The translations under genes and the position numbers were made by a program. 64,000 bases of DNA. It comes from Hysterangium stoloniferum (lineage: Eukaryota; Basidiomycota; Agaricomycetes; Hysterangiales; Hysterangiaceae). The stretch is from contig WHVD01000046.1 of the NCBI GenBank assembly GCA_015178975.1, forward strand, positions 62,001 through 126,000, in the 5' to 3' direction. The notes beneath the pieces were generated by a model. The model had not been told where the DNA came from. It did not search any database and saw only the letters and a list, made by a program, of their open reading frames with translations. This document shows positions 8,821 through 62,405 of the stretch, one piece after another. Position 1 is the first letter of the stretch, and each line of letters starts with the position of its first letter.

Positions 8821-9282
8821 ATGACCCCCCGAACCGGTGGGCATAAATCGAACCTTAGCTACAGGGCGTTTAATGACTTCTGCCTCTCACGATTTGACCG
8901 GATCCCAAAATACGCGATCGAGTCAACGCTCTACGAGACAAGGTGTCAAATCAGCACCGTATTGTCTTCACACATACGGACTGGTGCCTCGCAATATGTT
9001 GGTCGACAAAAATAACAGGGTTGTTGCGATTATTATTTGGGCGATGGCTGGGCGGAGGCCGGAACAATGGGAATATGTGAAACGATGTGGGCTCAAAACG
9101 GTGGAGGATCGCCGGAATTTGCACGAGGATTCCTTTCTGGCTACAGTGACCAACTTGCCCTTCACGACGAAATGTGTGACCTTTACGAGGCCCCATTTAA
9201 ATTATCGTTAGATACCGCCTCCCACTATGTCACACTTAATTTTTTGACCTGTTTCGGGTGGGGTTGGCTCGGGTGGATTTGA
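8821..9282 (+). pseudogene. Aminoglycoside phosphotransferase-family fragment, copy B
   Basis: Second copy of the 4667-5128 relic. Relative to A it has lost one C in the segment before LVPRN and one A after the WEY codons, so no single frame spans it. The DWE motif reads IWA. Two frameshifts plus the missing metal-binding Asp make it a clear pseudogene. Confidence 0.75.
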
Positions 9283-9871
9283 AGCTTGAATCTGGCCAGC
9301 GATGGCTTCAAAGCCCCTCAGAGCCGAATTCCGTCAGAACTGGTAATATTGGTTGAATTACATGCATCGGAACTCGTGTGATACACTTAACTTAAACTGG
9401 CAAGGTGCTGCGAGTCACAGCATACTAACCTACCTTGTTCAATGTTCACTGAGGATTTATAACGTACTCTTGATTTCACTTGTGTGATTCTTCCCCTTCT
9501 CTTCATCTATACTTTAAACGCTCCCCCCAATAATGCTCCGTAGCGAAGGATTAGCATCAAGAGAGAGCATTGATATGTGACAAAAAGGATGGCAGACAAC
9601 CACTTGAACCGTCGACGCAGGGAAGTCGCACCGCTGCCGTGCAGGACCCGTTGGTGGTGCCACGACACACATGTCCCAAAATTAAAGCGTGACAGACACT
9701 ACGTGTCATGATGATATCCCGAGAGACCGCTAAAACAGCAGATTATTCCACAAAATGGGGACGTTGAAAGTGAGTTGGCAGAGCTGGACTATGGTAATAT
9801 GATCATAGAGTCTGCGGATTGAACTTGTACGTATGTGACTCAAAAACCGTATATGACGACCAACTAATGTA
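9283..9871. other. Intergenic, no gene seen
   Basis: Sequence past the end of duplication B and before the tRNA. I see no ORF or repeat that can be named. Confidence 0.5.
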
Positions 9872-9966
9872 GCCGCGCTAGCTCAATCGGTAGGGCGTAA
9901 GACTCTTACAGTCCCTCTGACCGGGTAGGAGTCTTAAGGTTGCGGGTTCGATCCCCGCGCGAGGCT
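9872..9966 (+). tRNA. tRNA-Lys (anticodon CTT) with intron
   Basis: A cloverleaf can be drawn. The acceptor stem GCCGCGC pairs with GCGAGGC except for one G-A mismatch. The D arm is GCTC/GGGC and the anticodon stem TAAGA/TCTTA is perfect. The anticodon is CTT at 9905-9907, and the T arm is GCGGG-TTCGATC-CCCGC. An intron of about 22 nt (roughly 9909-9930) follows position 37, as is usual for nuclear tRNA introns, and contains AGG able to pair with the anticodon. The T-loop gives the B box GGTTCGATCC. Confidence 0.85.
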
Positions 9967-9969
9967 GAA

Positions 9970-13040: not shown

Positions 13041-14799
13041 ATGGGCCATTTTGCACGATATTCAAGCATCCAGAGCCAGCTCCGACAACTGACACAGGTC
13101 ATAAACGATGTTCTGGAGTCACCTAGGTGAGCAATTATCATTCGGGCGGTCCGTCGTGGCTTGTGATTCACAGATTATCAGGGACTCCTTATATGCTTAT
13201 GATGAACAAGCTAAACTGGAGAAACTCCTTGTGGATCTGGACACCGTGTACAATTCAGCCAAACTGGTACTGAAGTCCCACCATAATCAATTATCTCTTA
13301 TCAACAAGCTCCCGGACGAGCTTCTTCAAATTATTTTCACCCACGCCTTTAATGATAAAGCCAAGATGCCAATGTTTCAATACATGCATTTGACATGGGT
13401 TTGCCGCCGTTGGCGGTCATTGGCCCTAGACTGCGCTGAACTATGGACCTTTCTCAACTTAGATTGCAGAAACTATTTATTAATCCGGGAATGGTTGTTT
13501 CGTTCCAAGTTCGCCAAGCTGTCCGTAACCCAAGGAACCCTCGAAAACGTCGACCACGATGCCGTAGGCCAGGAGATTGTGATGCTCGAACAGTTGATTG
13601 GTCCTCAGCTTTGGCGTGTCGAATCGTTGTCGTTGAGAATAAATGCACGTCGATTGAAAGATATCCGCCATTTTCTTCAGCAGGAAGCTCCGTCCCTTAC
13701 GCATTTACACTTTTCTCGCGCAGTCGAAGTCGTACCATGGGTGCCGACAAACCAGCATACAGTCGGCACCACAGTGTCTTCCGTCAAACTTCCGAAACTA
13801 TTCAACGGTGTAGCACAGCTGCATTCCCTCTCCTTTGAAATGCCATCAATCCCACCTTGGGACGACTTTATTCCTTTAATGCAAGACCTCCGAGAGTTGA
13901 GAGTGGTTACCATACCACAGGATTACTACCGAAAGTGCTCGGCGCCGGAGCGACTTCTCTCCATTCTCCCGTCCTGTCCGTCCCTGGAAACCCTTGATTT
14001 CAAGTCGACGTCGGATGGAGAGACCGTGGCGGCTCTTCGGGTGACCACCCCTTCAGTCTCAATGCCTAACCTCCGGCGAGTGACTCTTCGAAGCGACCGA
14101 GATGTTCGTATTTTACCCCATATCGACATGCCGTGTCTTCAGCATCTCTCCCTGCATCTCGAACAAAGGAACCCCCGGGCCCTGGAGTCCCTCATAGGAT
14201 CAATATCGAGCGGGTTCGATCTGGCCTCGTTGAAGGAGGTGATCATCAATGGCAACGGGGACGTCTCAGGAACGACAGAAGGCCTCGAACACACCCCACC
14301 CTGCCTGGGCTCTCGCAGAAAACTACTTTCTGTTTTCATTCCGCAGCGTGGCTTCTCAAATTCGTTCACGCCCGCTCTGCTCTCAGTCTCGCGCAATATT
14401 TCGTGCCTCATATTGCGCGGCCATATGCATGGCGGCCCGCCTCCCGGCACACACACACTCAAGCAAATGATATCGGGTGCGAAGGGGCTAACCCACCTCG
14501 TCATCGCATGGCCCGCTGCGGCGTCGTCTCTCCTCAAAATACTTGAGGATCCACTTATTTTGCCTAATCTCATGAAGGTGACGTGTGTTGGATGCGGTAC
14601 ATCTTTGGAAGCACAATTGCTAGCCTGTGCTCAACAGCGGCCGCTTTCACCGCTCAAAGAAGTCGACATAATTGATTCTCCACTGCTAAGCAAGTTCTTC
14701 TTGAAGGTGATGGGTGAGCTTGGGATAAAGGTGCTCGCGAGGGCATGGGATCCCAGATGGAAAGCTACATACTACGGTACGGCTGGTGATTGCAGCTGA
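13041..14799 (+). CDS. F-box protein with leucine-rich-repeat-like C-terminus
   Basis: F-box proteins are substrate receptors of SCF ubiquitin ligases. I start at the ATG at 13041 (MGHFARYSSIQSQLRQL) and splice 13041-13126 to 13182-14799 through GTGAGC...ATCAG, giving about 567 residues. This yields a coiled coil running straight into ESPRDSLYAYDEQAKLEKLL, typical of basidiomycete F-box proteins. The internal ATG at 13108 also gives an uninterrupted frame but a less sensible N-terminus. The F-box is LINKLPDELLQIIFTHAF at about residues 70-87, with WVCRRWRSLAL and LW following. The rest has irregular Leu-rich repeats such as LRELRVVTI, LETLDFKS and LRRVTLRS. The substrate is unknown. Confidence 0.8.
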
Positions 14800-31865: not shown

Positions 31866-33459
31866 ATATCCATAGAATTAAATCGATAGCAAAAAATGCG
31901 TGGATTATTGATCATCACCATTTCCTAGCGAATTGATATCCATTAGTTAACCCTACCGCCTTGGACCGGAGGTTTCTGAACGAGTTGCATCGACCTCTGC
32001 TCGCTTCACTTATATGTTTGATCTTACCTTTCTCATTGAACAATGTGATTCTGATCCTTTTAACCGCTTCAACAAGGCCTAGTTTTATTCATATTCACTT
32101 TGCCCTTGCGACCAGGACTAGGGTATATGAAGGGTGTTCAGAACCAAGATCAGACATTTATCATAATAGACTGATCAGAGGTAATAGTCAGCATCTCTTG
32201 TCGTTATGGTACTTCCGGAAAAAAGGCTACAAGGTACTAAACCTCTTTCCCTGAGCAGATCCGTACCCCAGAATCCAGGAAGAGTGGAAAATGAGTCATA
32301 ATGTTTTGAAAATGCCGATCCAAATTGTTTTTGGGAGTTGACAAGGCTGGGAAAGGGGATCACGGGATCGCTTTTTTTTTTTTGTCGCTTTCGACAGAGC
32401 CCGTCCGCCTCAGGCTGTCCATATTTATGCCCCCCTTCCCATGTCGCCTGCTGAAATTAATTTACTTTTAGTGGTCATCACCCAGTGCTTTCCCTGTCGT
32501 CAACGTGGCGATTTTGACACTGAGTAAATCACTGCCCTTGAAGGCTCTGAGTCCTTCCCCCATATTTAGATTACTCTTGGCTTTCATAATCAACAGTCTA
32601 ACAGATATCAACCGTATGTTATCGTACATATTTAGATAATAGCAGCATAGAGTGCTAGCTCACGCCAGGGGTCACTGCCTGGCATGCTGGTTTGATCAAA
32701 TGCACAGTCAGACTTTGGAACGTGGTAATTCGCACTTTTAACCATCCGTGTTCACACAAGGAATACCAAAGCTTGCGCGAAGCCGTCGCTTTAGGTGTTT
32801 AAAAGAAATGCATCGATGTGGCCATGTGATTGATACTCCTCTTCCGAGTGCGTCAGTCCAATGTGAGACCCTCCCGACGTTTCTGGTCTCTCTCACTCTC
32901 TCACTTTTTTTTTTTCCTTTTTTTTTGCGTGAAGTGTTGCATCAGATAAGCCGGCCGCAGTAGCTCTCCTTATCCGCTAACAGTAGCTCTCCCTATCTGC
33001 TAGCAGTCAACGGGAGACCTGTGGAAGAAAAGGACAAGAAAACGAAAACTCCAGAGTATTACATACTTAGGAATCTAAATCATTTGAGAATTGTTTCAGA
33101 ACAAGAACTGGAAATTACGGGCAATCTATAGGAAGCGCCTGGATGAGAAAATTTAGTAGCATTTGTGTAACTAGCTAAGATACCCTCGCGATCGGCAATC
33201 ATCCGAGGAAACGCTTTTATGCACGGCCCTTTTCCTGGTTTCTCTTATCGACTTGAAATTGAATGTAAGAATCATGACATTCAACCACAAGAAACATCTA
33301 GAGAAGCCAATGGAGCAAATATACTTATGGTTGCCCTATCTACTATCTACCCTATCTACTATCTAGCATATTCCTCGCTCGATGATAATCATTTCAAGTC
33401 CTGGCCACATTGTACTTGCCTTGATATGACATTGGAGAGTATTTGCAACTAATATATAT
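31866..33459. other. Intergenic, no gene seen
   Basis: Contains pyrimidine tracts (about 32370-32382 and 32880-32930) and a short CTATCTACTATCTACC duplication near 33340. ORFs such as 31961-32254 look like chance. Confidence 0.5.
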
Positions 33460-33576
33460 TAGCCTCCACTGATCGCCTATCTTTGTTGGCCTGTAATGAA
33501 ACAGAGCAGAAAACAAAGTGTAGATAACAAGTGATGGCGGAAAACTCACTTCCAAAAGAAATACACCTGCCTAACT

Positions 33577-34049
33577 TCATGCTAGTTGGTTAAGTATGTT
33601 GAAGGAGTTTATTCTATGTCTTATGTACATCGCCCCTTTGCGCTTATATATTAGTGAGTTTGTAGATAATGTATCCGTTTGTATTCTATTTTCTATAGCT
33701 TTAATCCATCTGTCCGGGCTTCTTCTTTGATGGGTACTACTTGCTTGACTAATTCTCCAATCACATCTTATTTTTCCAAATAATGTGAGCACTGTCCATC
33801 ATCAACCTCAACAATAGCCTATCATTCCCCCTGTCTGGCTTCCCCTTTTTTAGTCCTGTGGTCTGCCAGTCCACTGCCAAGGATGGTCCCCATTGTTCCC
33901 TCTGGCCGTGGTTCACCTCTCCTTTTCTGGGCTTGTTCAGTAAGTCTCCAGGATTCTGCCTGTCCTGAAGCCCGCGTGATGTAGCAGGACATGATCCATG
34001 GACTCCGTACATAGACACAATGGACATTGCCATCGGCCTGTCCCCACAA
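33577..34049 (-). pseudogene. Non-LTR retrotransposon C-terminal tail (left arm)
   Basis: Fragments read LLLRLMMDSAHIIWKNK and, in another frame, RWIKAIENRIQTDTLSTNSL. They resemble the C-terminal region of fungal LINE polyproteins, where ESxHLIWKLRCERxI is followed by NRW...NxRLxxD. Several frame breaks. No RT or endonuclease is present. Confidence 0.5.
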
Positions 34050-34116
34050 CGTTGGACATCCGGCCCTGCCAGTAGCTCATTAACAGTTGACTCAAATTAC
34101 ATATTCTAATTTCTAC

Positions 34117-34232
34117 TGCGAAACGATCAAGTTACCAATAAGTCGTAAATAAACCACAGCTAATTTGTACAAGTTGCTGTGAATTTCTCGGATGAGGCAC
34201 ATGGCCTGAAGAAGTGGCGAGTGCTCGACGCA
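34117..34232. repeat. 116-bp segment, flipped relative to the palindrome (left)
   Basis: TGCGAAACGATCAAG...GAGTGCTCGACGCA. It lies in direct orientation with 38040-38155 although the surrounding arms are inverted. Its outermost bases form TGCG...CGCA. Confidence 0.88.
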
Positions 34233-34506
34233 TTCAGAATTTAGGGTTCTCTAAGTTTAAGATCAACCACATGTATAGAGGATAAAACTTATCCTGGCAA
34301 TATCATGATTAGTGAATCGAATGATGACACGACAGTAACTATCTACGCGACCAGGCATTGAAACGGATTGACACCAGCCCAACCTACGATATAGTTCGGA
34401 AAGATTGTAAGCACTATTAAGTATGGCTATCGCCAACGTGGCATAGGGAATCTGACAGTCGTCGTCCAGGTTCCCAGCTGGGAAATAGTCTTATCTACTT
34501 AAGGGA

Positions 34507-36088
34507 CTATCTGAATGGATACTCAACATCATCCCCCAAGGGCACCATTGCATTTGCACACCAACCCGTCGAGGGGACCCAAATCCACTTGTGCTCAGTC
34601 GATATCCATATCTCCTCAAGGTACATATGCCCTTGGGATTTTAGAGTAGGAACAGCATCTACCGATTTGTTCCACATTTTGTTCCATGCGTTCATCAAAT
34701 TTGGGTCCCACTTCACCATGTCCAAAACCACGGATGCACAGAATATCCGTAATTTCGGGAAAATTGAAACTGATTCCAGTATACTCCGTAAGATCTATAT
34801 TAGAACATCAATTTCTGCATATGGACAGCCGTATGTGCGTACATACTTGTTGGGGTACACAGTCGATTTCACGCCCGGGCGTAGGCCAAACGAACCTCTG
34901 AGTATTGCGCAGACTGCCCACCATCAAATGTGTCAAATTATGGAATGCAGCGGATACATTCTTCAAGTCATCTTGTGACACGTAGCCATCCGTGTCAATC
35001 TCCAGACAAGATACCAAATCGAGATGTCCCCATACTTGCAGATCTAAGAAGTCGGGCAGAACGCGAAACCTAGTGTGAGAGACTCGGACGGTTTCCACAG
35101 GACGGTGGCGCAGGATCTCAGTCAAAGTACTGTAATTCGCGGCGACAAATTTTAATTTGGGCAACGACGTCGGTGAGGGAACTACAGTAGGAAGGCTCTC
35201 GGCCATCTCTAGTGTCTGGATATTCGGACAATGGGCCAGTAAAAGCGACACCGCCGTAGGGATCTTAGGCCTAGGCCCATCGATATAATTACCGATGACC
35301 AAGTGTCGAATGGAGTAGAACGGTTCCAGAGATAAAGATGGTATATCCATCCAAAGTCCGACATCTGCGGCGACGGCTCGGACACCTATGAGATCCTGTT
35401 GTGATTGCTTGAATATATTTCGGATGTACTGGTGTTGCATCTCAAGATCGCCGTCATCATTCGAGGTTGTATCGTAGTCTTGAAGAAGGCGGAATCGATA
35501 TTTTTTATCCTCCGGAAGTTCGAGCGCTAGCGAAAGGCATTGTTGTTTCTCGCCTGTCCAAGCTTTGTGACCACATGGGTCATACGAATGTAAATAGTTA
35601 TAAGAACGAGGCCACTCCGAGTCGGGGGGCGTATGGAAATCGCACTCAATGAAAGCGATGGTCCTCAATCTGGGAATGGAGGCGACGAGGGTCGTTAGGT
35701 CGGCGTAGGTCGACTTCCACGTACTAAATAGGTCGTCGAACGTCATGTCGAACGCATCTAGTGCCATGGAAACGTCGATCGAGTCGGGAAGATAAACCCA
35801 GTTTTGAATCCAAACATGGCGAGTGTGACCAGTTAAATGTGGTGATTCTAACAAATATCGGATACGTTTCTGCGTTCGTTGGAGGCGATCCATGTATTCT
35901 CTCGGTACTCCTATTTCCCCATGTTGACGACAAAAGGGGTCGGAGCCTTCGAATGTCAGTGTTTTAAAGACTAAGGATACGAGAGATGAACGAATATGCC
36001 GGTTGATGCATGCTAAGTTTGAAATGTCCTTCTTTCCTAGACACTGATTGGCGATTCGCATCCATAGCTCACTTGGAAGATCTGGCAT
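34507..36088 (-). CDS. F-box protein, palindrome copy 1
   Basis: Two exons, 36088-34847 and 34794-34507, joined through GTATGT...ATATAG in phase; 509 residues. The start is the ATG of MPDLPSELWMRIANQCLGKK, and the F-box covers residues 3-45 (LPSELW...ISNLACINRHIRSSL). The remainder has dispersed Leu-rich segments such as LRTIAFIECDF, IRHLVIGNYI and IQTLEMAESL, so substrate recognition by LRR-like repeats is likely but unproven. The open frame is intact. It is almost identical to the gene at 36269-37859, with a few substitutions such as HTPPDSEW/YAPPDLEW. A TATATAAAG box lies about 52 bp upstream in the spacer. Confidence 0.82.
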
Positions 36089-36134
36089 CTTTTCTTCGAA
36101 GTGGCCCACTAAGAGAACAAGGGGGTGTGGCAGT

Positions 36135-36221
36135 CTCCTTTATATATCTGTACAACACGGTGATTATGTAATCACGTAAAACTAAAGGGTCCGTGCGTAA
36201 GACTGGGGGCACCAGGATTAC
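36135..36221. promoter_or_regulatory. 87-bp palindrome spacer, shared promoter region
   Basis: The only unique sequence between two divergent, near-identical genes. It holds CTTTATATATCTG (36138-36150), which reads TATATAAAG toward copy 1, and an ATTACGTGATTAC-like inverted motif (GATTATGTAATCACG) at about 36161-36175. Confidence 0.5.
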
Positions 36222-36268
36222 ACTGCCACACCCCCCTTGTTCTCTTAGCGGGCCACTTCGAAGAAAAG

Positions 36269-37859
36269 ATGCCAGATCTTCCAAGTGAGCTATGGATGCG
36301 AATCGCCAATCAGTGTCTAGGAAAGAAGGACATTTCAAACTTAGCATGCATCAACCGGCATATTCGTTCATCTCTCGTATCCTTAGTCTTTAAAACACTG
36401 ACATTCGAAGGCTCCGACCCCTTTTGTCGTCAACATGGGGAAATAGGAGTACCGAGAGAATACATGGATCGCCTCCAACGAACGCAGAAACGTATCCGAT
36501 ATTTGTTAGAATCACCACATTTAACTGGTCACACTCGCCATGTTTGGATTCAAAACTGGGTTTATCTTCCCGACTCAATCGACGTTTCCGTGGCACTAGA
36601 TGCGTTCGACATGACGTTTGACGACCTATTTAGTACGTGGAAGTCGACCTACGCCGACCTAACGACCCTCGTCGCTTCCATTCCCAGATTGAGGACCATC
36701 GCTTTCATTGAGTGCGATTTCTATGCGCCCCCTGACTTGGAGTGGCCTCGTTCTTATCACTATTCACTACATTCGTATGACCCATGTGGTCACAAAGCTT
36801 GGACAGGCGAGAAACAACAATGCTTTTCGCTAGCGCTTGAACTTCCGGAGGATGAAGAATATCGATTCCGCCTTCTTCAAGACTACGATACAACCTCGAA
36901 TGATTACGGCGATCTTGAGATGCAACACCAGTACATCCGAAATATATTCAAGCAATCACAACAGGATCTCATAGGTGCCCGAGCCGTCGCCGCAGATATC
37001 GGACTTTGGATGGATATACCATTTTTATCTCTGGAACCGTTCTACTCCATTCGACACTTGGTCATCGGTGATTATATCAATGTGCTTAGGCGTAAGATCC
37101 CTACGGCGGTGTCGCTTTTACTGGCCCATTGTCCGAATATCCAGACACTAGAGATGGCCGAGAGCCTTCCTACTGTAGTTCCCTCACCGACGTCGTTGCC
37201 CAAATTAAAATTTGTCGCCGCGAATTACAGTACTTTGACTGAGATCCTGCGCCACCGTCCTGTGGAAACCGTCCGAGTCTCTCACACTAGGTTTGACGTT
37301 CTGCCCGACTTCTTAGATCTGCAGGTATGGGGACATCTCGATTTGGTATCTTGTCTGGAGATTGACACGGATGGCTATGTGTCACAAGATGAGCTGAAGA
37401 ATGTATCCGCTGCATTCCATAATTTGACACATTTGATAGTGGGCAGTCTGCGCAATACTCAGAGGTTTTTTTGGACTACGCCCGGGCCTGAAATCGACTG
37501 TGTACCCCAACAAGTATGTCCGCACATACAGCTGTCCATATGAAATTGATGTTCTAATATTAACATTATAGATCTTACGGAGTATACTGGAATCAGTTTC
37601 AATTTTTCCGAAATTACGGATATTCTGTGCATCCGTGGTTTTGGGCATGGTGAAGTGGGACCCAAATTTGATGAACGCATGGAACAAAATGTGGAACAAA
37701 TCGGTAAATGATGTTCCTACTCTAAAATCCCAAGGGCACATGTGCCTTGAAGAGATATGGGTATCGACTGAGCACAAGTGGATTTGGGTCCCCTCGACGG
37801 GTTGGTGTGCAAATGCAATGGTACCCTTGGGGAATGATGTTGAGTATCCATTCAGATAG
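36269..37859 (+). CDS. F-box protein, palindrome copy 2
   Basis: Exons 36269-37513 and 37572-37859 join in phase through GTATGT...ATTATAG; 510 residues. It has the same domain layout as copy 1, with one extra codon in RSYHYSLHSYD. The F-box is at the N-terminus. No stop or frameshift is present, so both copies may be expressed. The nearest TATA-like sequence is about 120 bp upstream, in the spacer. Confidence 0.82.
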
Positions 37860-38039
37860 CCCCTTAAGTAGATAAGGCTATTTCCCAGCTAGGGAACCTG
37901 GACGATGACTGTCAAGATTGCCAATCCGTTTCAATGCCTGGTCGCGTAGATGGTTACTGTCGTGTCATCATTCGATTCACTAATTATGATATCTATACAT
38001 GTGGTTGATCTTAAAACTTAGAGAATCTTAAATTCTGAA

Positions 38040-38155
38040 TGCGAAACGATCAAGTTACCAATAAGTCGTAAATAAACCACAGCTAATTCGTACAAATTGC
38101 TGTGAGTTTCTCGGATGAGGCACGTAGCCTGGAGAAGTGGCGAGTGCTCGACGCA
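38040..38155. repeat. 116-bp segment, flipped relative to the palindrome (right)
   Basis: Partner of 34117-34232, in the same orientation on the plus strand. The flanks AATTCTGAA and AGTAGATATTAG match the reverse complement of the left-arm flanks, so only the segment is turned. Confidence 0.88.
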
Positions 38156-38187
38156 GTAGATATTAGAATATGTAATTTGAACTGTTA

Positions 38188-38680
38188 ATGAAGTACTGGC
38201 AGGGCCGGATGTCCAAGGTTGTGGGGACAGGCCGATGGCAGTCTATGTACGGAGTCCATGGATCATGCCCTGCTACATCGCGCGGGCTTCAGGACAGGCA
38301 GAAGCCTGGAGACTTACTGAACAAACCCAGAAAAGGACAGGTGAACCACGGCCAGGGGGAACAATGGGAACCATCCTTGGCAGGCAGACCATAGGACTAA
38401 AAAAGGGGAAGCCGGACAGGGGGAATGATAGGCTATTGTTGAGGTTGATGATGGACAGTGCTCACATTATTTGGAAAATAAGATGTGATTGGAGAATTGG
38501 TCAAGAGGGAAACACCCAAGTAATACCATCAAAGAAAAAGCCCGGACAGATGGATTAAAGCTATAGAAAATAGAATACAAACGGATATACTATCTACAAA
38601 CTCACTAATATATAAGCGCAAAGGAGCGATGTACATAAGACATGGAATAAACTCCTTCAACCTACCCAACCAACCAGCAT
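38188..38680 (+). pseudogene. Non-LTR retrotransposon C-terminal tail (right arm)
   Basis: Mirror copy of 33577-34049. The frame RLLLRLMMDSAHIIWKIRCD is longer here. Stops follow. A relic carried along in the palindrome. Confidence 0.5.
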
Positions 38681-38797
38681 GAAGCTAGGTAGGTGTATTT
38701 CTTTTGGAAGTGAGTTTTCCGCATCACTCGTTATCTACGCTTTGTTTTCTGCTCTGTTTCATTACAGGTCAACAAATATAGGGGATTAGTGGAGGCT

Positions 38798-39650
38798 CTC
38801 TGGGACAGAGCAAAGAACCGCGAGTTCAAATGCGGAAGTATTGTGTGAGTTGGAGTGGTGAGACAAGGAGGAAGCCAGTGTCTGAGGTCCGTTTTCGCTG
38901 CGCTTTTGAACGCAGTCATCGTCGCATATTATCACTTTGCACGTATACAGAAATTGTAATGAATCCACCACCACCGGCACCATAGAAACTCACACCCAAA
39001 CCTGTGGCATCGACACTATCAACAATTTGATATCGTCCACCTGCAACGCTCTCTACCCCGATCTACGACACATATCCCGCTGTGCTGAGTTCATTTCGAG
39101 ACGCAGTTACTTGAAGTGCCACTGCGACGTTACAATGCACTCACAGTTACACCCGAGCAATTGCAAGAAGCATCTTACCTGCCCACCGTGTTTCTCCATT
39201 TATCTGATATTTATGAACAGCTTTCCTCTGTTTGTTTACCAGTCTATTATTTTCTCATTGTCTTCCTTATCAAGACAATTGTATCATATCATATCATTAT
39301 TGTGTTGTTGCATTATATTTTTGTTACTACCTATGCTCCCTTATGTATAGAAGGGCCTCTCCATTGCCCATCAAGAAATTCATTAGATCCTCTTTTTAAA
39401 GCTCATTCTTAAGAACAGTCTCTTAATCTTAATCTTACTCTTACTCCTATGACCAGCGCTAGGGATATTGCTGTATCTTTTTCTATAGAAGTTCCTGCAT
39501 CATACCACATCAGGTTTGCATCAGCCTTGTGTATACATCTACATCTATGTTATCCAGGGTATGACCTTTAGCATCACCCTCTATGTGTGTTTAGTTATAG
39601 ATTGGTTATACAAACTACTGTATTAGTGACTGTCATAACATCTTAACTGT
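38798..39650. other. No firm feature
   Basis: The outer flank of the palindrome. A frame near 39110-39240 (LRRYNALTVTPEQLQEASYL) looks coding-like but has no identifiable family, and upstream frames are broken. Confidence 0.4.
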
Positions 39651-40700
39651 TTGTTACATGCAGATTATTAGGTCTCATTCCTAATAACAAATGTACAACA
39701 GGTGAGATTTTTAAGCTCTGGTCTCACAAGTAGGACTTGGCTTCAGCTTATGTGCTGTGCCCTCACATGATTGTTGTGTCCAATTTCAGACAGAGTGAAT
39801 GGGAAGTCCAGGGAGTCTGGGAGGAGGGAAGGATGATACTAAGTCTGAAAGGGAGTTGAGATGGGAAGTCCCAAAGACTCCCAGTCAGAGGGCCCATGGG
39901 CTCCAAGGATATGCTGGGGCAAGTTTAACTGATAGAGTGTACTGGGGGATAACTAAGTTGATTTTCTGATTGGATTGTAAATACAAATTAGTCTAGTTAT
40001 ATAGATGAGTCATACTACAATCCTGGTGGAACAGATAAACAAATAAATAGGGAATGGGCAGTAGCCAAGGTCTGGGAAAGTCCAAGATGAACCAGGAACA
40101 TACACATGGAACATAATAAACTAACTGACAACCAGGTCCCAAAACAGATTGAGACAAATATTGCATACATATATCTGAAGGGCCAAGATGTCCAGATGGG
40201 ACAAACAAATCAAGTTGGAATATCCACAGATATCCAATATCACCTGGAAATGGATCCTAATACTATAATAATTAAGTGTGTGTATTTCTGGGAAAACCAC
40301 AGGCTCTGGGCAGGTTGGAACATTGGCATAGAGAAGTGATAAGGGTTGGCAGGGATGATCAAGTGAAGGTTGGGTCATGGATTAAAAATGTATATAGAAC
40401 AAATGTAGGGAGTCCAGCTGGAGTCCAGGTTGGGAAATGACTAAGGACACTTGGAGATACTAGGTGGAAAAGGGCAGAGTCTGATGGGTTCCAGGACATA
40501 AGATAAAGCATCTAGTTGTGAGTGGAAGATCTGACTGGGGACTGAGGTAAAGGGTACTTGGTCAGGTTCTGGTGGATTCCAAATCTTGCTACTAGTCCAG
40601 AAGATGGTTTGGAACCTGATATTGTATCCAGGAACTACTCTGTGGAGTTCTTTGGAACAGATCTTCACAGAGATGAAGATTCACCAGAGTTTAATTATGG
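39651..40700 (+). repeat. Degenerate LTR-like sequence, left inverted arm
   Basis: It starts TGTTACATG and shares the GTAGGACTTGGCTTCAGCTT and TGTCCAATTTCA blocks with the solo LTR at 41929. Bases about 40210-40695 match the reverse complement of 41390-41855 (for example GGCTCTGGGCAGGTTGGAACATT). CpG is nearly absent. Confidence 0.6.
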
Positions 40701-41004: not shown

Positions 41005-41395
41005 ATAAAGTCAAATCTTCCTAAACAATTGCAAATTGCACTGTATCCTCCTGAATACTTGTGAATTGTACCGTATCCTCTCAAATATTTGTGAATTGCA
41101 ATGAATCACATTGTATCCTCTTGAATATTTGTGGATGGCACTGAATCCTCCCAAACAATTGTGAGTCACAATAAAGTGAATTGAATCTTCCCAAACAATA
41201 GTGAATCACAATGAATCACACTGTAGCCTCTTGAATATTTGTGAATTGCACTGTATCCCCTCAAATATTTTTGAATCACACTGAATCCTCCCAAACAATT
41301 GTGAATTGCAATGAATTGAACTGAATCTTCCTAAACAATAGTGAATTGCAATGAATCACACTGTAGCCTCTCAATTATTTTTGAATCTGAATCCT
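41005..41395. repeat. CpG-poor minisatellite between inverted LTR-like arms
   Basis: Repeated units of about 30 bp built on TGAATCCTCCCAAACAATTG and TGTGAATTGCA variants, grouped in larger units of about 130-140 bp. Confidence 0.75.
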
Positions 41396-41928
41396 CCAGT
41401 GAAGATCCATTCCTAGAGACTCCACAGAGTATTTTCCAGAAACCATATCAGGTTCCAAACTATCTTCTGGACTAGTATCAAGATCCAGAACCCACTGGAA
41501 CCTGACCCTCATTCCTCAAGTACCCTTCACATCCCATTCTGGTATTCTGCCCTCAACTATGTAGACATATCCTGCTATGTATGACCCGGAATCCATAGGA
41601 CTCCACCCTTTGACAGTTGGCATCTCCACATGTCCCTAGCCATTTCCCAGCCTGGACTCCTGGCATTTGTTCTAGATACTTTGGTCTGTGACCCAACCTT
41701 CACTAGATCATCCTTGTCAACCTTCTCTATGTCAATGTTCCAACCTGCCCAGAACCTGTGGCCTTCCCGGAAATATGCACACTTAGTCATTATAGTGTTA
41801 GAATCCATTTTCAGATAGTATCAGATATTTGTGGATATCCTGACTAACTTCCTTTGTTCTGCATTTGGTAACTGACTGGTTGACAGATGTTCATTCATCT
41901 GTTTATTGTTCTTGCCCTTATTCCCTGA
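41390..41928 (-). repeat. Degenerate LTR-like sequence, right inverted arm
   Basis: Reverse-complement partner of about 40210-40695. It is interrupted at its right end by the solo LTR at 41929, whose right flank continues at 42769. Confidence 0.6.
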
Positions 41929-42768
41929 TGTTAGGATACACACTCAGGCCGGGTTTCCGGAGAAACCTGCAGGATATCCGGTAGGACTTGGCTTCAGCTT
42001 ATAGGCTGCGCCCTCGCTAGATCGTGTTGTCCAATTTCAAACGGACGGACGGGGATCCCGGGGAGTCTGGGTGGGGTTCGTGGGTCGTAGGTTGTAAGTC
42101 GTGGGTCGTGGGTTGTAAGTCGGAGGTCGTGGGTCGTGAGTCGAGTTGGTTGAGAGAGATAGATGCACCGGAGCCCGTGGGCTCCGACTAGTGCGAGCAA
42201 TGTGAATCGAGTAAGGTTTTAGAGCGGAAAATATTATTAGATTACTGGGGGGAATCTAAGCTAATTTTCTGACTGGATTGTATGTACAACATCTGCCAGT
42301 TTATATAGACCGTGGAATGCATGACATACCAAATCCAGTAATAACGAAACGAAACTAACAAAACATGAAACGGGAATGGTAAACACCAAATTGGTGTTAG
42401 GAACGGAACGGAACGGAGCAGAGTCTGAATCGTGACAAAGCATAACCCATAATGGGAAACGGAGCGGGAGCGGAGTCCTAAATCGTGACAGGTCATTTGA
42501 CTAAAACGGGAATGGGGCTCGATTAGAGCGGTGACGGGATTCTAAGCGGGGACCGGTGACTGATGCGTGGGACGAAGATGGACATAGACAGAGACGGAGT
42601 CCGGGGGAAGTCCGGTGACTGATATGTGTTGTAATGAGGTCGAACGTAACGAGTCTTGACGTAATGGAGTCCGGGCGGGAAATCCTATAAACAGACGATT
42701 GGTGCTTGTAGCATGTGGGGGCGTATGGGTTAGTGCCCGGAGTCCGGCGGGATTGTCCGGTCGTAACA
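41929..42768. mobile_element. Solo LTR (family 1), 840 bp
   Basis: Begins TGTTAGGATAC and ends GTCGTAACA (TG...CA). It is flanked on both sides by CCTGA (41924-41928 and 42769-42773), a perfect 5-bp target duplication. It contains a GT-rich mini-repeat (GTGGGTCGTGGGTTGTAAGTC variants) at about 42079-42143. Related copies lie at 57949-59169 and 61600-62405. Confidence 0.88.
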
Positions 42769-43269
42769 CCTGATCTGTCTCCATCCTTGTCTCCTCATTT
42801 ATCTGACTCATTATTATATCCTTAGTTTGGAAACAGTTCCAAATATGTCTTATTATACTCCCAGACTTGTAGTACAATAATTGGAACATCTATACAGGAG
42901 GATATCTGAAAACTATTAGGTATACCAAATTCTAATATACTCTAAAGGTCATTTAAACATCTGGGATGTGATTCAAACATAATTTGGTTTTTAAAACTTT
43001 AGGAATGTTTAAAACTTATTGGTATATTATTAAACAAATCATCTTTCAAGACCTGAATAGATTATGAAAGAGCTTAGTAGATTAAAACATTAAGACTTTT
43101 AAAAAGCATATCCTTTTAAATGGTCCATTTCATGCATATATATGCCATTGACATCTCTAAATACATATGTATTACATCGGAATGGCTCTGTCAATCTGAA
43201 CAGATTTCTACTTGATTCAACATACCCAGAATATATAGGTGGTTTAAGCCTGCCCACCTCTTAACAGTA
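42769..43269. other. AT-rich sequence between LTR and Gypsy fragment
   Basis: It continues the target of the solo LTR and leads to CTCTTAACA directly before the Gypsy leader. An eroded LTR of the following element may be included. No gene. Confidence 0.4.
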
Positions 43270-45840
43270 TTTTCTGACCAGGACTTGCAGATTGTGTCAA
43301 TATACCACCAAGAAAAAAAGCACCCATACAGGCATCATTACCTGGACCCTCAACTCTTCATTCCCCAATCACTTTTACCAGTCAAACACTCACAAACCAG
43401 CCAGACCCCACAGTCAAATCCTATATTGAAGAAGTTCCAGAAAACCCAGACAATTCAGAGCACAAGGATGAGTCTGTGGCCCCTGACAAGGGCAAGGGTG
43501 TCAAAAATCCTCCATCTACCCAGCAACTGCAGCTTCCAGATCCCACTTCTGAATTTCTAGCAAACTCTTTAGAAAAATTAATGAATCACATGTTAGATGA
43601 CAAAAAGAAAAAGGATCAAGAACCTCTGCAGTCAAAAGTCAACATTCCAGAACCTTTCACAGGTTCCAACTGCAACAAACTTTCCACTTTCCTCATGCAA
43701 TGTCACTTCAATTTCTGGGATCAATCTGCCACATTCTCCACAGACTCCTGAAAAGTCAACTACACACTCTCATACCTCTTGGGATCCACATTGAAATGGT
43801 TTGAACTGGCTTTTAGTGGACTTTCCAGGGAAGAGCCGATCTGGCTTGAAGATTGGAATGTGTTTGTTGAAGAGCTAGAGACAAACTTTGGACAATATGA
43901 CCTGACTGGAGAAGCCGAGAACAGCCTCACCAATCTTTGTATGAAGGACAACCAGCACATCATGGACTACATTGTCCAATTTCACAATCTTGCAACTCAT
44001 TGTTAGTGGGATGATCCCACTCTCTGCCACCAGTTCTATGCTGGTCTGCCATCCTGCCTCAAGGACAAAGTCTCAAAAGGAGAAGATGGCAAACCCAAAA
44101 CATTGTCCCATATGCACCTCAAGGCTCAAAATGCAGACACATGCTATTGGGAACATCACATGGAAGGTGCCCACAAGACCTCCATGGACAAAGTCAACAA
44201 GTCCACAGCCAGCAAGCCTAACAACAACACCCCATCTACCAGCAACCAAAACTCCACTCACTCAAACTGGAAGAATGACAAAAAGTCTTCCAACAATAAC
44301 AAAGGTTAGCAATCTGGTAAACAAAATGGAAAAACCAACCTTACAGGCAAGCTCGGGCCCAATGGGAAACTTACCCCACAGGAAAGGCAGCATCATATGG
44401 ACAACAACCTTTGTCTCTTGTGCTGAAAACCTGGTCATCGAGTCCCAGAATGTCCATTGGCGAAAGCAAACTCTGTGAAAGGTCATGTAGCCAATACTCC
44501 TTCCATGGAGTCCCCATTGAAGGACAAACCAGCTTCTGATCCAAAAAAAGGGTAAGTAACTCCACAGTCTCCATGCAGGTTGGGGGTTGCATTACCTCTC
44601 CATGCATTCATACTTGTCTTAATACATCTGCTCTTTTGAACTCTGACTCACTTTTTATTAAACTTATGTCTGATATGATCCCAAAATTCATTTCTTCAGC
44701 ACTCATAGACTCCGGCTCAACTCATTGTTTTGTAGATACAAAGTTCACACAAAATTATCTTTCTTTGTCAACTTATCTGATCAACCTGGTTGGACTCCAA
44801 CTTTTTGATGGTACAAGCAATTCAGTTATCACCAAAGCTTGTGATCTTTCTATCCAGGTCCTGTGTGGAACATCCCAGTTGGTCACTTTCTATGTGACCC
44901 AGTTAGACTCAAGTTGCTCAGTTGTCCTAGGACATACATAACTGGCTTACCCAATACAATCCATTGATTGACTGGGTATCAAACAGTATAACTTTCTGGA
45001 CACCTATGGTGCCCAAGATAACTGTATCTGACACGGCCTCCACAGCACCTGCAGCCTTGGTAGCTCCTGTGATCCTTATGGCACCCCCAGCCATTTCAGC
45101 ATCCCTGGCCATTTCAGCATCCCTAGCCTTTCCAGCACCTGTGGCCTCGGTGGCCCCTGTGATCCCTACAGCACCCATGGCTTCCCCAGAACCTACAGTA
45201 TGGCACCTCCATCTATTTCTCTTATTAATGCTGCAGCATTTATCAGAGCTATGAAAATGGATGGATCCTAGGCATTCACTATCAATTTGAAAATTGATGA
45301 AGCAACTGGCTGTTTTTCAACCCCAGCATCTGAGCAAACTGCAGACCTAGAAGGGGTCCCTGAGAAATACCATGATTTTATGGATGTTTTTAGTAAGTGT
45401 AAAGCTGACTGGCTTCCACCCTACAGAGAGTATGACCTAAAAATTGACCTCAAAGAAAGCACCCAGCCACCCCTTGGACATATCTACCTGCTGTCCTCTA
45501 TGGAAATTTCCACAATCTGGGATTTCCTGGATGAAGATTGGTCTATAGGTTTTATCTGACCCTCAAAGTCTCCTTTTGGAGCACCTATTTTGTGTGTTAA
45601 GAAGAAGGATGGATCCCTTTGACTGTGTTGATTTCAGAGGACTCAATGCTGTTACATGGAAGGATAAGTATCCACTCCCATTTATGTATATCTGACCTGC
45701 TCAACACTCCACAGAATGCCCAGATTTATACCAAGATAGATCTTAAACACACCTACCACTTGGTCCAGATCTCCATGGGAGACAAGTGGAAAACCACTTT
45801 CAGGACCTATTATAGGGCTTTTGAGTGGTTAGTGATGCCC
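43270..45840 (+). pseudogene. Ty3/Gypsy gag-protease-RT fragment (old, CpG-depleted)
   Basis: The order gag, zinc knuckle, protease, RT start is readable in pieces. Gag has CHFNFWDQSATFSTDS and LKWFELAFSG; the knuckle is CLLC-stop-KPGHRVPEC. The protease is ALIDSGSTHCFVDTKF (DSG active site). The RT start has HDFMDVFSKCKADWLP and YTKIDLKHTYHLVQI, then breaks off after FEWLVMP at the junction with the minus-strand element. At least four internal stops lie in gag. Compared with the copy at 56009-57948 many CG sites read TG or CA here, including a CGA to TGA stop after the ATFSTDS codons. Confidence 0.85.
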
Positions 45841-47568: not shown

Positions 47569-49524
47569 TTAGAGTTGATTGTCGAGTAGAGTAAAGAAAA
47601 TAGACTGCATTCTTGGAAGGGAAATGGTTCTGGGTTCTTGGTGAGACTGCATATACCCATCATCAAATCCGATGCAGTGTCTTGTCTTGTATGCTCTGAG
47701 TAGAGCTGGGGCATTTCGGAGGTCAGTGCTGTTTAGCCAGGAGTCCTCCTCAGGTCCATAGCCTTTCCACCTGATTCGAAAAAACAGATGATTTCGAAGT
47801 TTCCTGTGGCCAGTAATGGCTTCAACTTTGTATTCTTCCTCATTTGAACCTAACTCTCTGGGGTTCTTGAGTAGTTCCCTAGGGCCAAACACTTCCAGGG
47901 ACGAGTGATATTTCTTAAGGTGGGCTCAATTGATGACGGGGTGCATTTGGTACTCTGGGGGTATTTTGAGTCTAAAGACTTGGGGATTAATTTTTTCCAG
48001 GACCTGAAATGGTCCGATGTGTCTTTGGATTAGTTTCCTTCCACTACCCTTAATTTCTACCAATTCTAAGGAATGGGGGTTGACTAATACTAGATCCCCC
48101 TCCGAGATTTCCTCGACCGGCTTTTGATGCTTGTTGTAGGATCGAGCTTGGGTTTCTTGTGCTTGGGCGATTGAGTCCCTCACCATTTGTCTGTGACTTT
48201 CCAATTCCACAATCCATGAGTCTGCCATAGGACTTTCAGATAGTTCCCTGGGGACTATAGGATCGTCTCCTCCTAGTACCCTGGACATCCCCCTCAGTAG
48301 GTACCCCATTAAGAGGAAGGCAGGAGCGTAGTTAGTCAGACTATGAATGGTGGAGTTGTAAGTGTTGGCTACTATCCCAATCCATTTCGACCATTCTTCC
48401 TTGGCTGATGAGCAGTAAGCCCTCAGCATTTGTTCGAGGGTGGCATTCATATTTTCTGTCTGCCCGTCCGTCTGAGGGTGGTGAGAAGAAGAGACGGCTA
48501 GAGTGGTTCCATATATCTTGCAAACTTCCCTCCAGAATCTACAGGTCCACCTTTTGTCTCTATCGCAGATAATTCTGGAGGGTAGTCCGAAAGGAGACGC
48601 TACTTGGTTTACGAAGATCTGTGTGAATCCTTCGGCGGACAAGTTAGAAAAAGTGCATTCACAGATAATGAAGTGTGTCAGCTTGTCGACTACCACGAAA
48701 ATGGCCGAATAAGAGTCACTGCCAGAAGTTGGCAGTCTGGTTATGAGATCCATGGAGACTACCTCGAATGGCTTAGAAGGTACATCAGCTGGTCTGAGGG
48801 CTCCCTGCAGTGTGGAGTGATTGATTTTCGTCTTCTGACAGGTGTCACAACTGCGAGCATACGCCGTGCAATCCTGTAACATTCTAGGCCAGAAGAAACA
48901 GTCTTTCATGAGCAGGAATAGCCTACACCCTCCTGTGTGAGCTCCTTCGAAGGGATTATCATGGATCAGCTTTAGAATTGTGGTTGTCATATTGTTAGGA
49001 ACACAGATCTGACTTTTCCAGTCCAAATCGTGAAAATACAACAATCCCTTTTCTCCAATGAAGAAATGTGAAGGGGTAGCTACAGCATTTGGGGATTTCA
49101 GTTCCTCGATGTAGTAGCTTCTGAAGGTGGGGTCCTTCTGATACCCTTCTGAGAACTCTTCCAGGAATCTTTTGTTGATGCTTACGAGTAGCTGAGGGTT
49201 TAACGAACAGAATAGCGATTCATCCACTTCATCATCTCTGGGGAGGTTATACAAATCCCATTCGGTTTGTGGGGTGTCCCCTGGGGTTCTGATGGGTTCT
49301 ACAAGTTCTCGTTGTGTGACAAAGACAGCTCTCCTCGTGGGATTATCCTCTTGTGGTTTCTCCTCAGTTCCCTTGCTGAGCGAGCTTGACACGATTGTCG
49401 GGATATCATCTCCAGCTGGACTCACTGAGTGGGGTACTTGTGGTAGTCTAGATAGGGGATCAATGTTACTGTGTACTCGTCCAGCACGATGTAGTATTTC
49501 GAGGCCTGGGTACGCTGCATACAC
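47569..49524 (-). pseudogene. Gypsy integrase and chromodomain
   Basis: The N-terminal zinc-binding part has HTGGCRLFLLMKDCFFWPRM and CDTCQKTK. The catalytic core shows VVSMDLITRLP, ICDRDKRWTCRFW and HHPQTDGQTENMN (D, D, E). HIGPFQVLEKINP then MHPVIN precede a TGA at 47926; the frame continues AHLKKYHSS into the chromodomain FFRIRWKGYGPEEDSWLN at about 47750. Chromodomains steer integration toward heterochromatin. The stop separates the chromodomain from the integrase. RNase H lies upstream across another TGA at about 49540. Confidence 0.88.
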
Positions 49525-56008: not shown

Positions 56009-57948
56009 CATCTTTGAAGCCCTAATAAAAGCTGCAGCATTAATCAGAGAAATGGATGGAGGTGCCGTGGGTTCCGGGGAAGCCATTGGTGCTGTAGGGA
56101 TCACAGGAGTCTGTGAGACTGCAGGTGCCAGGAAAGCCATGGGTGCCATGGAGGCCGAGACAGGCACAGTTTCCTCGGCTGCCGCGGGAGTCTGGAATGT
56201 TATACTGTTAACTATCCAGTCAATCAACGGATTGTAGATTGTAGTGGGTAAGCCAGCTATGTCCTAGGACCACTGAGCAACTTGAGTCTAACTGGGTCAC
56301 ATAGAAAGTGACCAATTGAGATGTTCCACATGGGAAACAGATGGGTAAATCACAAGCTTGGGTAACAACCGAATTACTTGTGCCATCGAAGAGGTGGAGA
56401 CCGACAGGATTTATCGAATAAGTTGACAAAGAATCTTTTTGTGTGAATTTTGTATCTAAAAAACAATGAGTCGAGCCTGAATCTATAAGAGCTGAAAAAA
56501 CAAATTTCAGGATCATATTAGACATAAGTTTAACAAAAAATGAATCAGAATGTGAAAGAGCGGATGCGTTGAGATGGGTAAACTCTTGAATGCACGGAGA
56601 GGCGATGCAACCCCCAACCCACATGGAGTCCACGGGGTTGCTTACTCTTTTTTCGAGTCAGAAGCCAGTTTGTCCTTCAATGGGGTTTCCGTGGAGGCCT
56701 TGGCTGTTTGACCCTTTGAAGAGTTTGCTTTTGCCCGCAGACATTCTGGAACTCGATGACCAGGTTTCCTGCACAAGAGACAGAGGTTATTGTCCATGCG
56801 ACATTGTCTTTCCTGTGGGGTCAATTTGCCATCGGGTCCGAGTGTGCCTGAGAGGTCAGGTTTTCCGGCTTGCTTGCCGAACTGTTGACCCTTGTTATTG
56901 TCCTTGTTGTTGTTGTTGTTTGAAGACTTTTTATTGTTCTTCTTGTCGGATTGCGTGGAGTTTTGGTTGCTGGTTGACAAGTTGTTGTTGTTGTTTTTAT
57001 TGGCCGTGGACTTAGTGACTTTGTCTGCGGAGGTCTTGCAGGCAACTTCCGCGCAATGTTCCCAATAACATGCATCTGCATTTTGATCCTTGAGGCATAT
57101 GCGGGACAGGGTTTTTGGCTTGCCATCTTCTCCTTTCGAGACTTTGTCTTTAAGGCAGGATGGCAGACTGGCATAGAATTGGTGGCGGAGAGTGGGATCG
57201 CCCCACTGACAACGAGCTGCAAGATTGTTGAATTGGACAATGTAGTCCATGATGCACTGCATGTCCTTCATACGAAGATTTGTGAGACTATTCTTGGCTT
57301 CTCCTGTCAGATCATACGGGCCAAAGTTGGTTTCAAGCTCCTCAACAAAAGCATCCCAATCTTCGAGCCAAAGCGGCTTTCCTCGGAAATCCCGCTAAAA
57401 GCCAGTTCGAACCATTTCAGTGCGGATCCTGACAAGTATGAAAGTGTGTAGTTGACTTTTCGGGAGTCCGTGGAGAATGCGGCGGATTGATCACAGAAAT
57501 TGAAGTGACATTGCATGAGGAAAGTAGAGAGCTTGTTTGGGTTGGAACCCGTGAAGGGTTCCGGAGCATTGACTTTTGACCATGGAGGTTCTTGTTCCTT
57601 TTTCTTTCGTTCTTCAAGCAGGTGCGTCATAAATTTATCTATAGTGCCTGCTAAAAACTCAGAAGTAGGGTCCCCCAAGTGCAGTCACTGTAAAGGTGGA
57701 GGATTTTCGACACCTTTTCCCTTGTCGGGTGCCATGGATTCATCCTTGTGCTTGGATTCATCCTGGTTTTCCAGAACTTCTTTGATACGGGCTTCTTCCA
57801 TGGGTTCCGGTTGGTCCAAGAGTGTCTGACTGGTATACAAAGTTAACGGGGAATGAAGAGTCGACAGTCCAGGTAATGATTCCTGTGCACGCATTCTTCT
57901 TCTTGGTGGCATAATGAAAATGATCTGCAAGTCTAAGTCAGAAAATAC
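56009..57948 (-). pseudogene. Second Ty3/Gypsy copy: gag and protease
   Basis: Same family as 43270-45840 but opposite strand and better preserved. The start is MPPRRRMRAQESLPGLSTLH at about 57913. Gag continues through LKWFELAFSG, where a frameshift follows near 57385, then CLLCRKPGHRVPEC (CCHC knuckle) and ALIDSGSTHCFLDTKF (protease). An in-frame stop lies after ENPPPLQ. RT and everything downstream are missing, cut at about 56008. Confidence 0.85.
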
Positions 57949-59169
57949 TGTTAGGATACGTACAGGGCGGGTCTCCAGAGAAACCCGTGGGATATCCAGT
58001 AGGACTTGGCTTCAGCTTATAGGCTGCGCCCTCACTAGATCGTATTGTCCAATTTTCAGACAGGCGGACGGGAATCCCGGGGAGTCTGGGCGGGGGTTGT
58101 GGGTCATGAGTCGTAAGTTGGAGGTTGTGGGTCGTGAGTTGAGACTGGTGAGAGAGTGTGAAGAGTGGTTAGATTCTGACCATTCTATATACGAAGAAAT
58201 GAGTAGAATGGGAAGATGGATGATTTGAGTGGAGGCCTCAACTGTTACAGTTTGAGGCCAAAAGTGTTAGATAGTTTAGATATTGCTACCTATGTAGTAG
58301 CTGACATGTTACCCTGATCACTGCTCGTAGTAGACCTAGTTTATGTCTTACGAGTGGTGGTTCTTGGGTAAAAGTGTGTCTGAGTTTCATTTGGTGCCAA
58401 GTGCACCCACAAGTATACACAATGCTTCGAACTAATGAAATATGCAATATTCAAAGAATATAAAAGATAGAAAAATATGAATAGAATGTGTAAAATATAA
58501 ATAAAATAAAAGGAGTGTTTTACCACAATGAAACTGTGGTAAAAGCATACTCCTCACAGAGAGATAGATATGCTGGAGCCCATGGGCTCTGACTAGTGCA
58601 AGCGGTGTGAATCAAGTAGGGTTTTAGAGCAGAAAATGTATTAGGTTACTGGGGGAGTCTAAGCCGATTTTCTGACTGGATTGTATGTACAACATCTGCC
58701 AGTTTAAATAGACCGTGGAGTAAATGTCATACCGAATCCAGTAATAATGAAATGAAGCAAGCAAAACATAAAACGGGAATAGTAAACACCAAATTGGTGT
58801 TAGGAATGGGATGGAACGGAGTGGAGTCCGAATCATGACAAAGCATAACCCATAACGGGAAACGGAGCAGGAGCAGAGTCCAAATTGTGACAGGTCATTT
58901 GACTAAAACAGGAATGGGGCTCAATTATAGCGGTGACAGGATGCTGAGCAGGGTCCAGTGACTGATGCGTGGGACGAAGACGGACATAGACAGGGACGGA
59001 GTCCAGGGGAAGTCCGGTGACTGATATGTGTCGTAATGAGGTCGAACGTAACAAGTCTTGATGTATGGAGTCTGGGTGGGAAATCCTATAAACAGACAAT
59101 TGGTGCGTGTAGGGCATGGTGGCGTACAAGTTAGTTCCTGGAGTCCAGCAGGATTGTCCGGTGGTAACA
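57949..59169 (-). mobile_element. LTR (family 1), 5' LTR of the adjacent minus-strand Gypsy copy
   Basis: It reads TGTTAGGATACG...GGTGGTAACA on the plus strand. The gag leader of 56009-57948 starts directly at its edge, so it serves as that element's 5' LTR. The outer flank is AAGGG and the inner AATAC, so it is not a solo LTR. Its length is inflated by a 402-bp insertion. Confidence 0.78.
58157..58558. mobile_element. 402-bp TG...CA insertion inside the LTR
   Basis: Starts TGTGAAGAG and ends CTCCTCACA. It is flanked on both sides by GAGAG (58152-58156 and 58559-58563), a perfect 5-bp target duplication. The sister LTRs lack it. Probably a third family of solo LTR. Confidence 0.82.
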
Positions 59170-61599: not shown

Positions 61600-62405
61600 T
61601 GTTAGGATACACACACAGGGCGGGTCTCCAGAGAAACCCGTGGGGTATCCGATAGGACTTGGCTTCAGCTTATAGGCTGCACCCTCGCTAGATCGTGTTG
61701 TCCAATTTCAAACAGGCAGATGGGAATCCCGGGGAGTCCAGGCGGGGTTCGTGGGTCATAGGTCGGAGGTCATGGGTCATGAGTTGAGATAGTCGAGAGA
61801 GATAGATGTGCCGGAGCCCATGGGCTCTGACTAGTGCAAGTGGTGTGAATCAAGCAAGGGTTTAGAGCGGGAAAATGGATTAGATTACTGGGGGGAATCT
61901 AAGCTAATTTTCTGACTGGATTGTATGTACAACATCTGCCAGTTTAAATAGACCGTGGAGTAAATGTCATACTGAATCCAGTAATAATGAAACGAAAGGA
62001 GCAAAACATAAAACGGGAATAGTAAACACCAAATTTGGTGTCAGGAACGGAACGAAGCGGAGTCCGAAACATGACAAAGCATAACCCATAACGGGAAACG
62101 GAGTGGGAGCGGAGTCCTAATAGTGACAGGTCATTTGACTAAAACGGGAACAGGGCTCGATTAGAGCAGTGACGGGATTCTGAGCAGGGTCCGGTAACTG
62201 ATGCGTGGGACGAAGACGGACATAGACAGGGACAGAGTCCATGGGAAGTCCAGTAACTGATATGTGTCATAATGAGGTCGAACGTAACGAGTCTTGATGT
62301 ATGGAGTCTGGGTGGGAAATCCTATAAACAGACATTTGGTGCATGTGGGGCATGGGGGTGTACGGGTTAGTACCCGGAGTCTGGCGGGATTGTCTGGTTG
62401 TAACA
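61600..62405. mobile_element. Solo LTR (family 1) inside the Helitron ORF, 806 bp
   Basis: TGTTAGGATAC...GGTTGTAACA, flanked by CTCCC on both sides (61595-61599 and 62406-62410), a perfect 5-bp target duplication. Removing the LTR and one duplicate restores a continuous frame from VPAPP into LNNRWLRG. Confidence 0.9.

Follow-up and report, generated by a model that had tools for sequence, protein, structure and literature searches.

The stretch of DNA analysed here (the window) comprises 64,000 nucleotides of the Hysterangium stoloniferum genome (contig WHVD01000046.1 of assembly GCA_015178975.1, positions 62,001 to 126,000) and contains an imperfect palindrome carrying two putative F-box-like genes placed head to head. 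Alignment of the arms delimited a left arm of 2674 bp at 33461–36134 (minus strand) and a right arm of 2576 bp at 36222–38797 (plus strand), separated by a spacer of 87 bp at 36135–36221. The palindrome and spacer of the original prediction were thereby borne out, together with its two open genes and the pieces of repeats at the arm ends. The arms are 96.4% identical, with 91 differences in 2531 aligned sites and indels of up to 76 bp. Since the length and identity of this match are far above chance expectation, the inverted repeat is real.

The arms are inverted relative to each other except for a stretch of 116 bp at 34117–34232 with TGCG/CGCA ends, which forms a direct repeat with its counterpart at 38040–38155 (6 mismatches in 116) while its flanks remain inverted. 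We read the flipped stretch as the result of a local inversion that affected one arm once the duplication had formed. Genome searches were performed on the assembly of 111.1 Mb in 554 contigs, and among the scored matches (40 of 201 candidates) the flipped stretch had no copy outside the palindrome. In the rest of the arms, 85 of 2415 aligned sites differ, with 66 transitions and 19 transversions, and the mismatches are enriched at CpG (23 of 85 vs 252 of 2413 sites), as deamination of methylated cytosine would give. The left arm also includes an old interspersed repeat at 33583–34028 (plus strand; right-arm counterpart 38285–38674), with matches of 70–77% at C323 and C187.

The right gene (36269–37859, plus strand) is predicted to encode 510 aa in two exons, 36269–37513 and 37572–37859, with an intron at 37514–37571; the left gene (34507–36088, minus strand) would encode 509 aa, with exon 1 at 34847–36088, an intron at 34795–34846 and exon 2 at 34507–34794. 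Their start codons are 180 bp apart. The predicted introns, of 58 nt in the right copy and 52 nt in the left, both start with GTATGT and end with TAG. The two-exon prediction is supported by a paralogue at C212 (50% identical), in which an intron occupies the same position and the second exon also matches. In place of the single open reading frames (ORFs) that run into the intron, the genes are best modelled with two exons, ending at 34507 and 37859. A protein search of the whole genome returned 14 matches including the two copies, 6 of them with internal stop codons.

The F-box label for the pair is plausible but weak as judged from profile comparisons. Scores against the Pfam F-box-like family PF12937 were 11.2 bits for the left copy, 14.5 for the N-terminus of the right copy and 14.7–17.7 for the C212 paralogue, none reaching the cut-off of 24.3, which is exceeded by another protein of the window (13108–14799). 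In the Pfam scan, the longer ORF of the right copy gave no F-box match, only EF-hand_8 at an E-value of 0.18. Likewise, L004 and L006, which are more distantly related paralogues, were without an F-box match. As to a repeat-type C-terminal part like that of F-box/LRR proteins, direct comparison with the F-box protein of 13108–14799 by hhalign yielded an E-value of 0.00023 with a probability of 44%, and the profile search of the PDB retrieved weak matches, with chain 6vcd_B (F-box/LRR 5, LRR being leucine-rich repeat) at an E-value of 0.5 beside an unrelated chain at 0.66.

Most of the spacer derives from a dispersed long terminal repeat (LTR), a point on which the original prediction is amended. 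Positions 36150–36222 (plus strand) correspond to the last 73 bp of a 216-bp LTR from a small, TRIM-like LTR element (TRIM, terminal-repeat retrotransposon in miniature), with 73 of 73 positions identical to positions 144–216 of the LTR at L025 (36 of 45 match rows). The full LTR starts with TGTAATCC and finishes with GGATTACA; the fragment at the centre is 5'-truncated, lacks a matching target-site duplication, and ends 46 bp before the start codon of the right gene. Between it and the left arm lie 15 bp (36135–36149) that contain TATATAAA on the minus strand, upstream of the left gene, which by eye could be read as a TATA box. The junction of the LTR fragment with these 15 bp is unique in the genome when up to 3 mismatches are allowed.

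The family to which this fragment belongs consists of solo LTRs and small two-LTR elements, four of which were seen, of about 0.9–1.2 kb; the two LTRs within each of these four full elements differ by 2.8–5.3%. Target duplications of 5 bp were found in 9 of 10 LTR insertions with both ends readable (8 of 9, plus L029, read by eye); L020 is the exception without a duplication, L021 was unreadable, and L019 and L022, whose flanks are the same, may represent a single event. The search for the family (L018–L030) gave 553 first-look candidates, and the 40 that were scored are 98–100% identical to the query, so it looks young and abundant.

The two outer ends of the palindrome differ. On the left, the first 29 bp of a palindromic miniature inverted-repeat transposable element (MITE), which measures 103 bp in locus L039, are present at 33435–33463 (plus strand; 29 of 29 identical to the L039 MITE), and the element is cut there: all 7 MITE copies examined extend beyond the point corresponding to 33463. 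The MITE match ends at 33463 and the arm match starts at 33461, thus leaving a 3-bp microhomology, AGC (33461–33463), common to both. The genome has dozens of near-identical ends of this MITE of about 103 bp (L036–L042 and 33435–33463), which account for 53 of 58 match rows. On the right, a 409-bp interspersed repeat at 38700–39108 (plus strand) spans the end of the arm, with matches of 76–77% at C550, C37 and C241, each over the whole of 38700–39108, and only its 38700–38797 part has a counterpart in the left arm. All 3 fetched copies of the family match the repeat on both sides of 38797, with 71–75% identity inside the arm and 76–78% beyond it (gaps counted as differences).

Since the outer repeat is continuous over 38797, whereas the left arm is cut inside the same repeat and joined to the MITE, the right arm would stand in its native context and the left arm would be the inverted copy. 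This polarity is well supported, though drawn from repeat continuity, and the right arm as the duplicate was discarded on the same grounds. The opposite polarity would require that a right-hand copy was joined in register with another member of the repeat family, so that the arm part and the remaining repeat would stem from different members; this reading needs an extra event and is less simple. In the outer repeat part the arms are only 7% apart (14 of 199), whereas the family members are about 23% from the window.

These ends also bear on whether the palindrome could be an assembly artefact, arising from a fold-back chimera within a read or from head-to-head joining of two haplotypes. Long-read data are known to yield artefactual palindromes. 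In a fold-back chimera the arms would be almost the same, whereas here they have diverged at 85 of 2415 sites, by indels and by the inversion of the flipped stretch, and the fold-back read was rejected on the 4.9% divergence between the arms in their non-coding part (33461–34507). Moreover, the two outer ends are different, the left one being a microhomology joint, and no second near-identical copy of either flank, which a second haplotype would provide, was present among the scored genome matches. An artefact is thus highly improbable.

The locus is probably the product of a single inverted duplication by fold-back or template-switch repair, with the right gene as the ancestor and the LTR piece as the loop. 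The ancestral locus would have had one F-box-like gene, the present right copy, flanked downstream by the old repeat and upstream by an LTR whose end lay 46 bp from the start codon. After a break or a stalled fork within the LTR, a strand would have folded back on itself or moved to the complementary template, and synthesis would have proceeded outwards through the gene over about 2.6 kb. Copying would have stopped inside the downstream repeat, and the end would have been joined through the 3-bp microhomology to the other broken end in the MITE, with the LTR piece becoming the loop that is now the spacer. Later, the arms would have diverged by ordinary mutation, indels and the single 116-bp local inversion, both genes staying open. 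The anatomy, the junction sequences, the divergence and the scarcity of coding indels are read directly from the sequence; from these we infer that there was a break, that a strand folded back and in what order the centre took shape. The inverted copy adjoins the original across a short spacer that is not itself duplicated, one arm is in its native context (3 of 3 repeat copies) and the other is cut at a new junction with a MITE; the copy beside the original, the LTR piece as a loop and the microhomology joint all fit such repair. Recombination between two LTRs or between two MITEs was discarded, because the window has an LTR match only at 36150–36222 and a strong MITE match only at 33435–33463, and LTR and MITE are unrelated to each other.

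Several observations weigh against fold-back or template-switch repair. The symmetry of the arms ends 1 bp into the LTR, which is a coincidence under fold-back, and the inverted microhomology needed at the centre would have to have lain in the ancestral sequence left of the LTR. All the yeast events in the available part of PMC7467729 had a further chromosome-scale rearrangement, and none is seen here; the human fold-back spacers given in the available part of PMC3907307 are far longer, 766–70,466 bp, than the 87 bp of this locus.

The position of the arm boundary is equally explained if the palindrome came first, with a shorter spacer or none, and the LTR was inserted later at the inner end of the right arm, followed by a central deletion that took the first 143 bp of the LTR and part of the centre. 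In that case CTGCC after the LTR would be the right target duplication. The uniqueness of the central junction agrees with this order, as does the identity of the 73 bp to many family copies while the arms are about 5% apart in non-coding sequence. However, two further events are required, insertion and deletion, and zero changes in 73 bp are not unlikely at the age of the palindrome: half of 4.9% predicts some 1.8 changes, and none would then be seen with P about 0.17. Old members of the family also exist, as the divergence between the LTRs of the full elements indicates. A later LTR insertion is therefore possible but rather unlikely, and the duplication with the LTR already in place is preferred.

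Divergence of the arms also bears on the age of the event. The survival of the palindrome had been attributed to a very recent origin or to gene conversion between the arms. A very recent origin did not hold, since the 4.9% non-coding divergence falls within the 2.8–5.3% found between the LTRs of the four full elements and dS is 0.042; a fresh duplication is ruled out by the same non-coding divergence. The genes, described as near-identical, are both open, but their coding sequences differ by 44 substitutions in 1527 sites (2.9%) and one in-frame codon indel. The count of synonymous and non-synonymous changes between the aligned arms, which had been proposed as a check, gave 14 synonymous changes in 343 sites and 30 non-synonymous changes in 1184 sites (dN 0.026). 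Using the C212 paralogue as an outgroup, 43 changes were examined, with 16 assigned to the right copy, 18 to the left copy and 9 left undecided.

The dN/dS ratio of 0.61 is not, alone, different from neutral (p = 0.14). Indels are much scarcer in coding sequence, with 1 (in frame) in 1530 sites vs 15 in 889 non-coding sites (p = 3e-6). Old repeat makes up some of the non-coding sequence and may be more prone to indels, but substitution rates differ far less. In the indel comparison, 3 of the 18 non-coding indel events, at the edges of the excised flipped stretch, were dropped; with them, p = 2e-7. No stop was gained in either copy and the splice signals were retained. Given this scarcity of coding indels, the absence of stops and the kept splice signals, both reading frames were apparently constrained over at least a large part of their history. 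The first 104 codons have no non-synonymous change vs 30 in the remainder (p = 0.002), while the 12 non-synonymous changes and 1 synonymous change in codons 171–340 lack statistical significance (p = 0.32).

Gene conversion between the arms, which would keep the two genes alike, is compatible with some of this pattern. The innermost coding part, 35801–36088, has 0 differences in 288 sites, whereas the other coding and flank bins differ by about 3–7%; the first 104 codons differ from the rest when all sites are taken (p = 0.0009), and there is a weak outward increase in mismatches (Spearman 0.07, p = 0.0005). At synonymous sites, however, the first 104 codons have 1 change in 70 vs 13 in 273 in the rest (p = 0.32), and the same codons are also better conserved relative to the C212 paralogue (62 of 104 vs 177 of 378, p = 0.027), so selection on the N-terminal part suffices for the stretch of zero differences. 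The flipped stretch, being in the wrong orientation, should escape simple arm-to-arm conversion, yet its divergence does not significantly exceed that of the rest (p = 0.21) or of its neighbours (p = 0.63), and against other non-coding sites the proportion is 7 of 124 vs 39 of 791 (p = 0.66; small counts with little power). Also, the 96.4% identity of the arms contrasts with the more than 99% of mammalian sex-chromosome palindromes under frequent conversion, according to the available part of PMC8981503. Conversion between the arms was therefore not borne out as an explanation and seems unlikely, although it may have acted locally near the palindrome centre.

The structure had further been considered hairpin-prone and normally unstable, which is fair in general: interrupted palindromes are also called unstable in the excerpt of PMC10766186, and the excerpt of PMC8053094 reports that Alu-type palindromes, whether perfect or interrupted, raise rearrangements more than 10,000-fold. 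Here, the arms are diverged and the spacer has 87 bp, and a 9-bp spacer already reduces breaks by 80%, with the level unchanged from 9 to 12 bp (same excerpt of PMC8053094). By analogy, the palindrome may be fairly stable at present. No inverted repeat of at least 100 bp was found in 48 of 59 fetched loci (175,396 bases), a partly overlapping and non-random sample that says little on frequency; the other 11 loci overlap the palindrome or its flanks and were excluded.

The locus is a clear natural case of inverted gene duplication in which transposon remnants reveal the junctions and the likely direction. It is also an imperfect palindrome that has persisted, both genes remaining open, while its non-coding sequence diverged by about 5%. 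Its value is that of a worked case, and ideas on palindromes are unchanged. More speculatively, and with little probability on present sequence evidence, the LTR end could have been turned by the fold-back into a shared two-way promoter; if so, two co-expressed ubiquitin-ligase adaptors with different targets would have arisen in one step, the N-terminus being kept fixed and the recognition part diverging.

Other repeats were observed in the window. Just right of the palindrome, an older inverted repeat (74%) at 40220–40683 / 41382–41838 surrounds a 30/70/140-bp tandem array. Another inverted repeat (43262–45049 / 56142–57953, 78%, about 11 kb apart) flanks a gypsy-type integrase ORF at 47926–49524 and could be two opposed retroelement copies. 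A tandem-type direct duplication extends over 1901–9290, with 1901–2676/5636–6412 (94%), 3447–3779/7244–7586 (91%) and 3822–5136/7978–9290 (89%), and a dispersed repeat occurs three times (41929–42769, 58558–59169 and 61600–62406; 85–89% alike). ARAGORN, run with the bacterial code, called a transfer RNA with a stop anticodon (tta) at 9871–9967, which is perhaps false.

Compared with known systems, the LTR family resembles TRIM elements, as defined in the available part of PMC6934838, in its two 216-bp LTRs around a short internal part, TG...CA ends and 5-bp target duplications; the likeness is drawn from the terminal repeats of the family, since the copy at the palindrome centre is only a 73-bp end fragment. 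Sex-chromosome gene palindromes likewise have genes in facing arms, but theirs are kept more than 99% alike by conversion (PMC8981503, in part), unlike the arms here. For amplification by template switching as in origin-dependent inverted-repeat amplification (ODIRA), whose yeast junctions have inverted repeats 40–80 nt apart in the excerpt of PMC10766186, the likeness is one of spacer length, 87 bp being just over that range, whereas ODIRA gives an inverted triplication and this locus is a duplication. Fold-back (hairpin-primed) inverted duplications share with it an inverted copy next to the original, an unduplicated spacer loop and junction microhomology: loops have a median of 36 nt in repair-proficient yeast strains (PMC7467729, in part) and 13 human junctions have 2–8 bp of inverted microhomology (PMC3907307, in part). 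The locus differs from them in being small (2.6 kb), interstitial, free of any chromosome-scale rearrangement seen, and old enough to have diverged. The event is thus a known kind of inverted gene duplication, not very recent, with an unusually readable anatomy.

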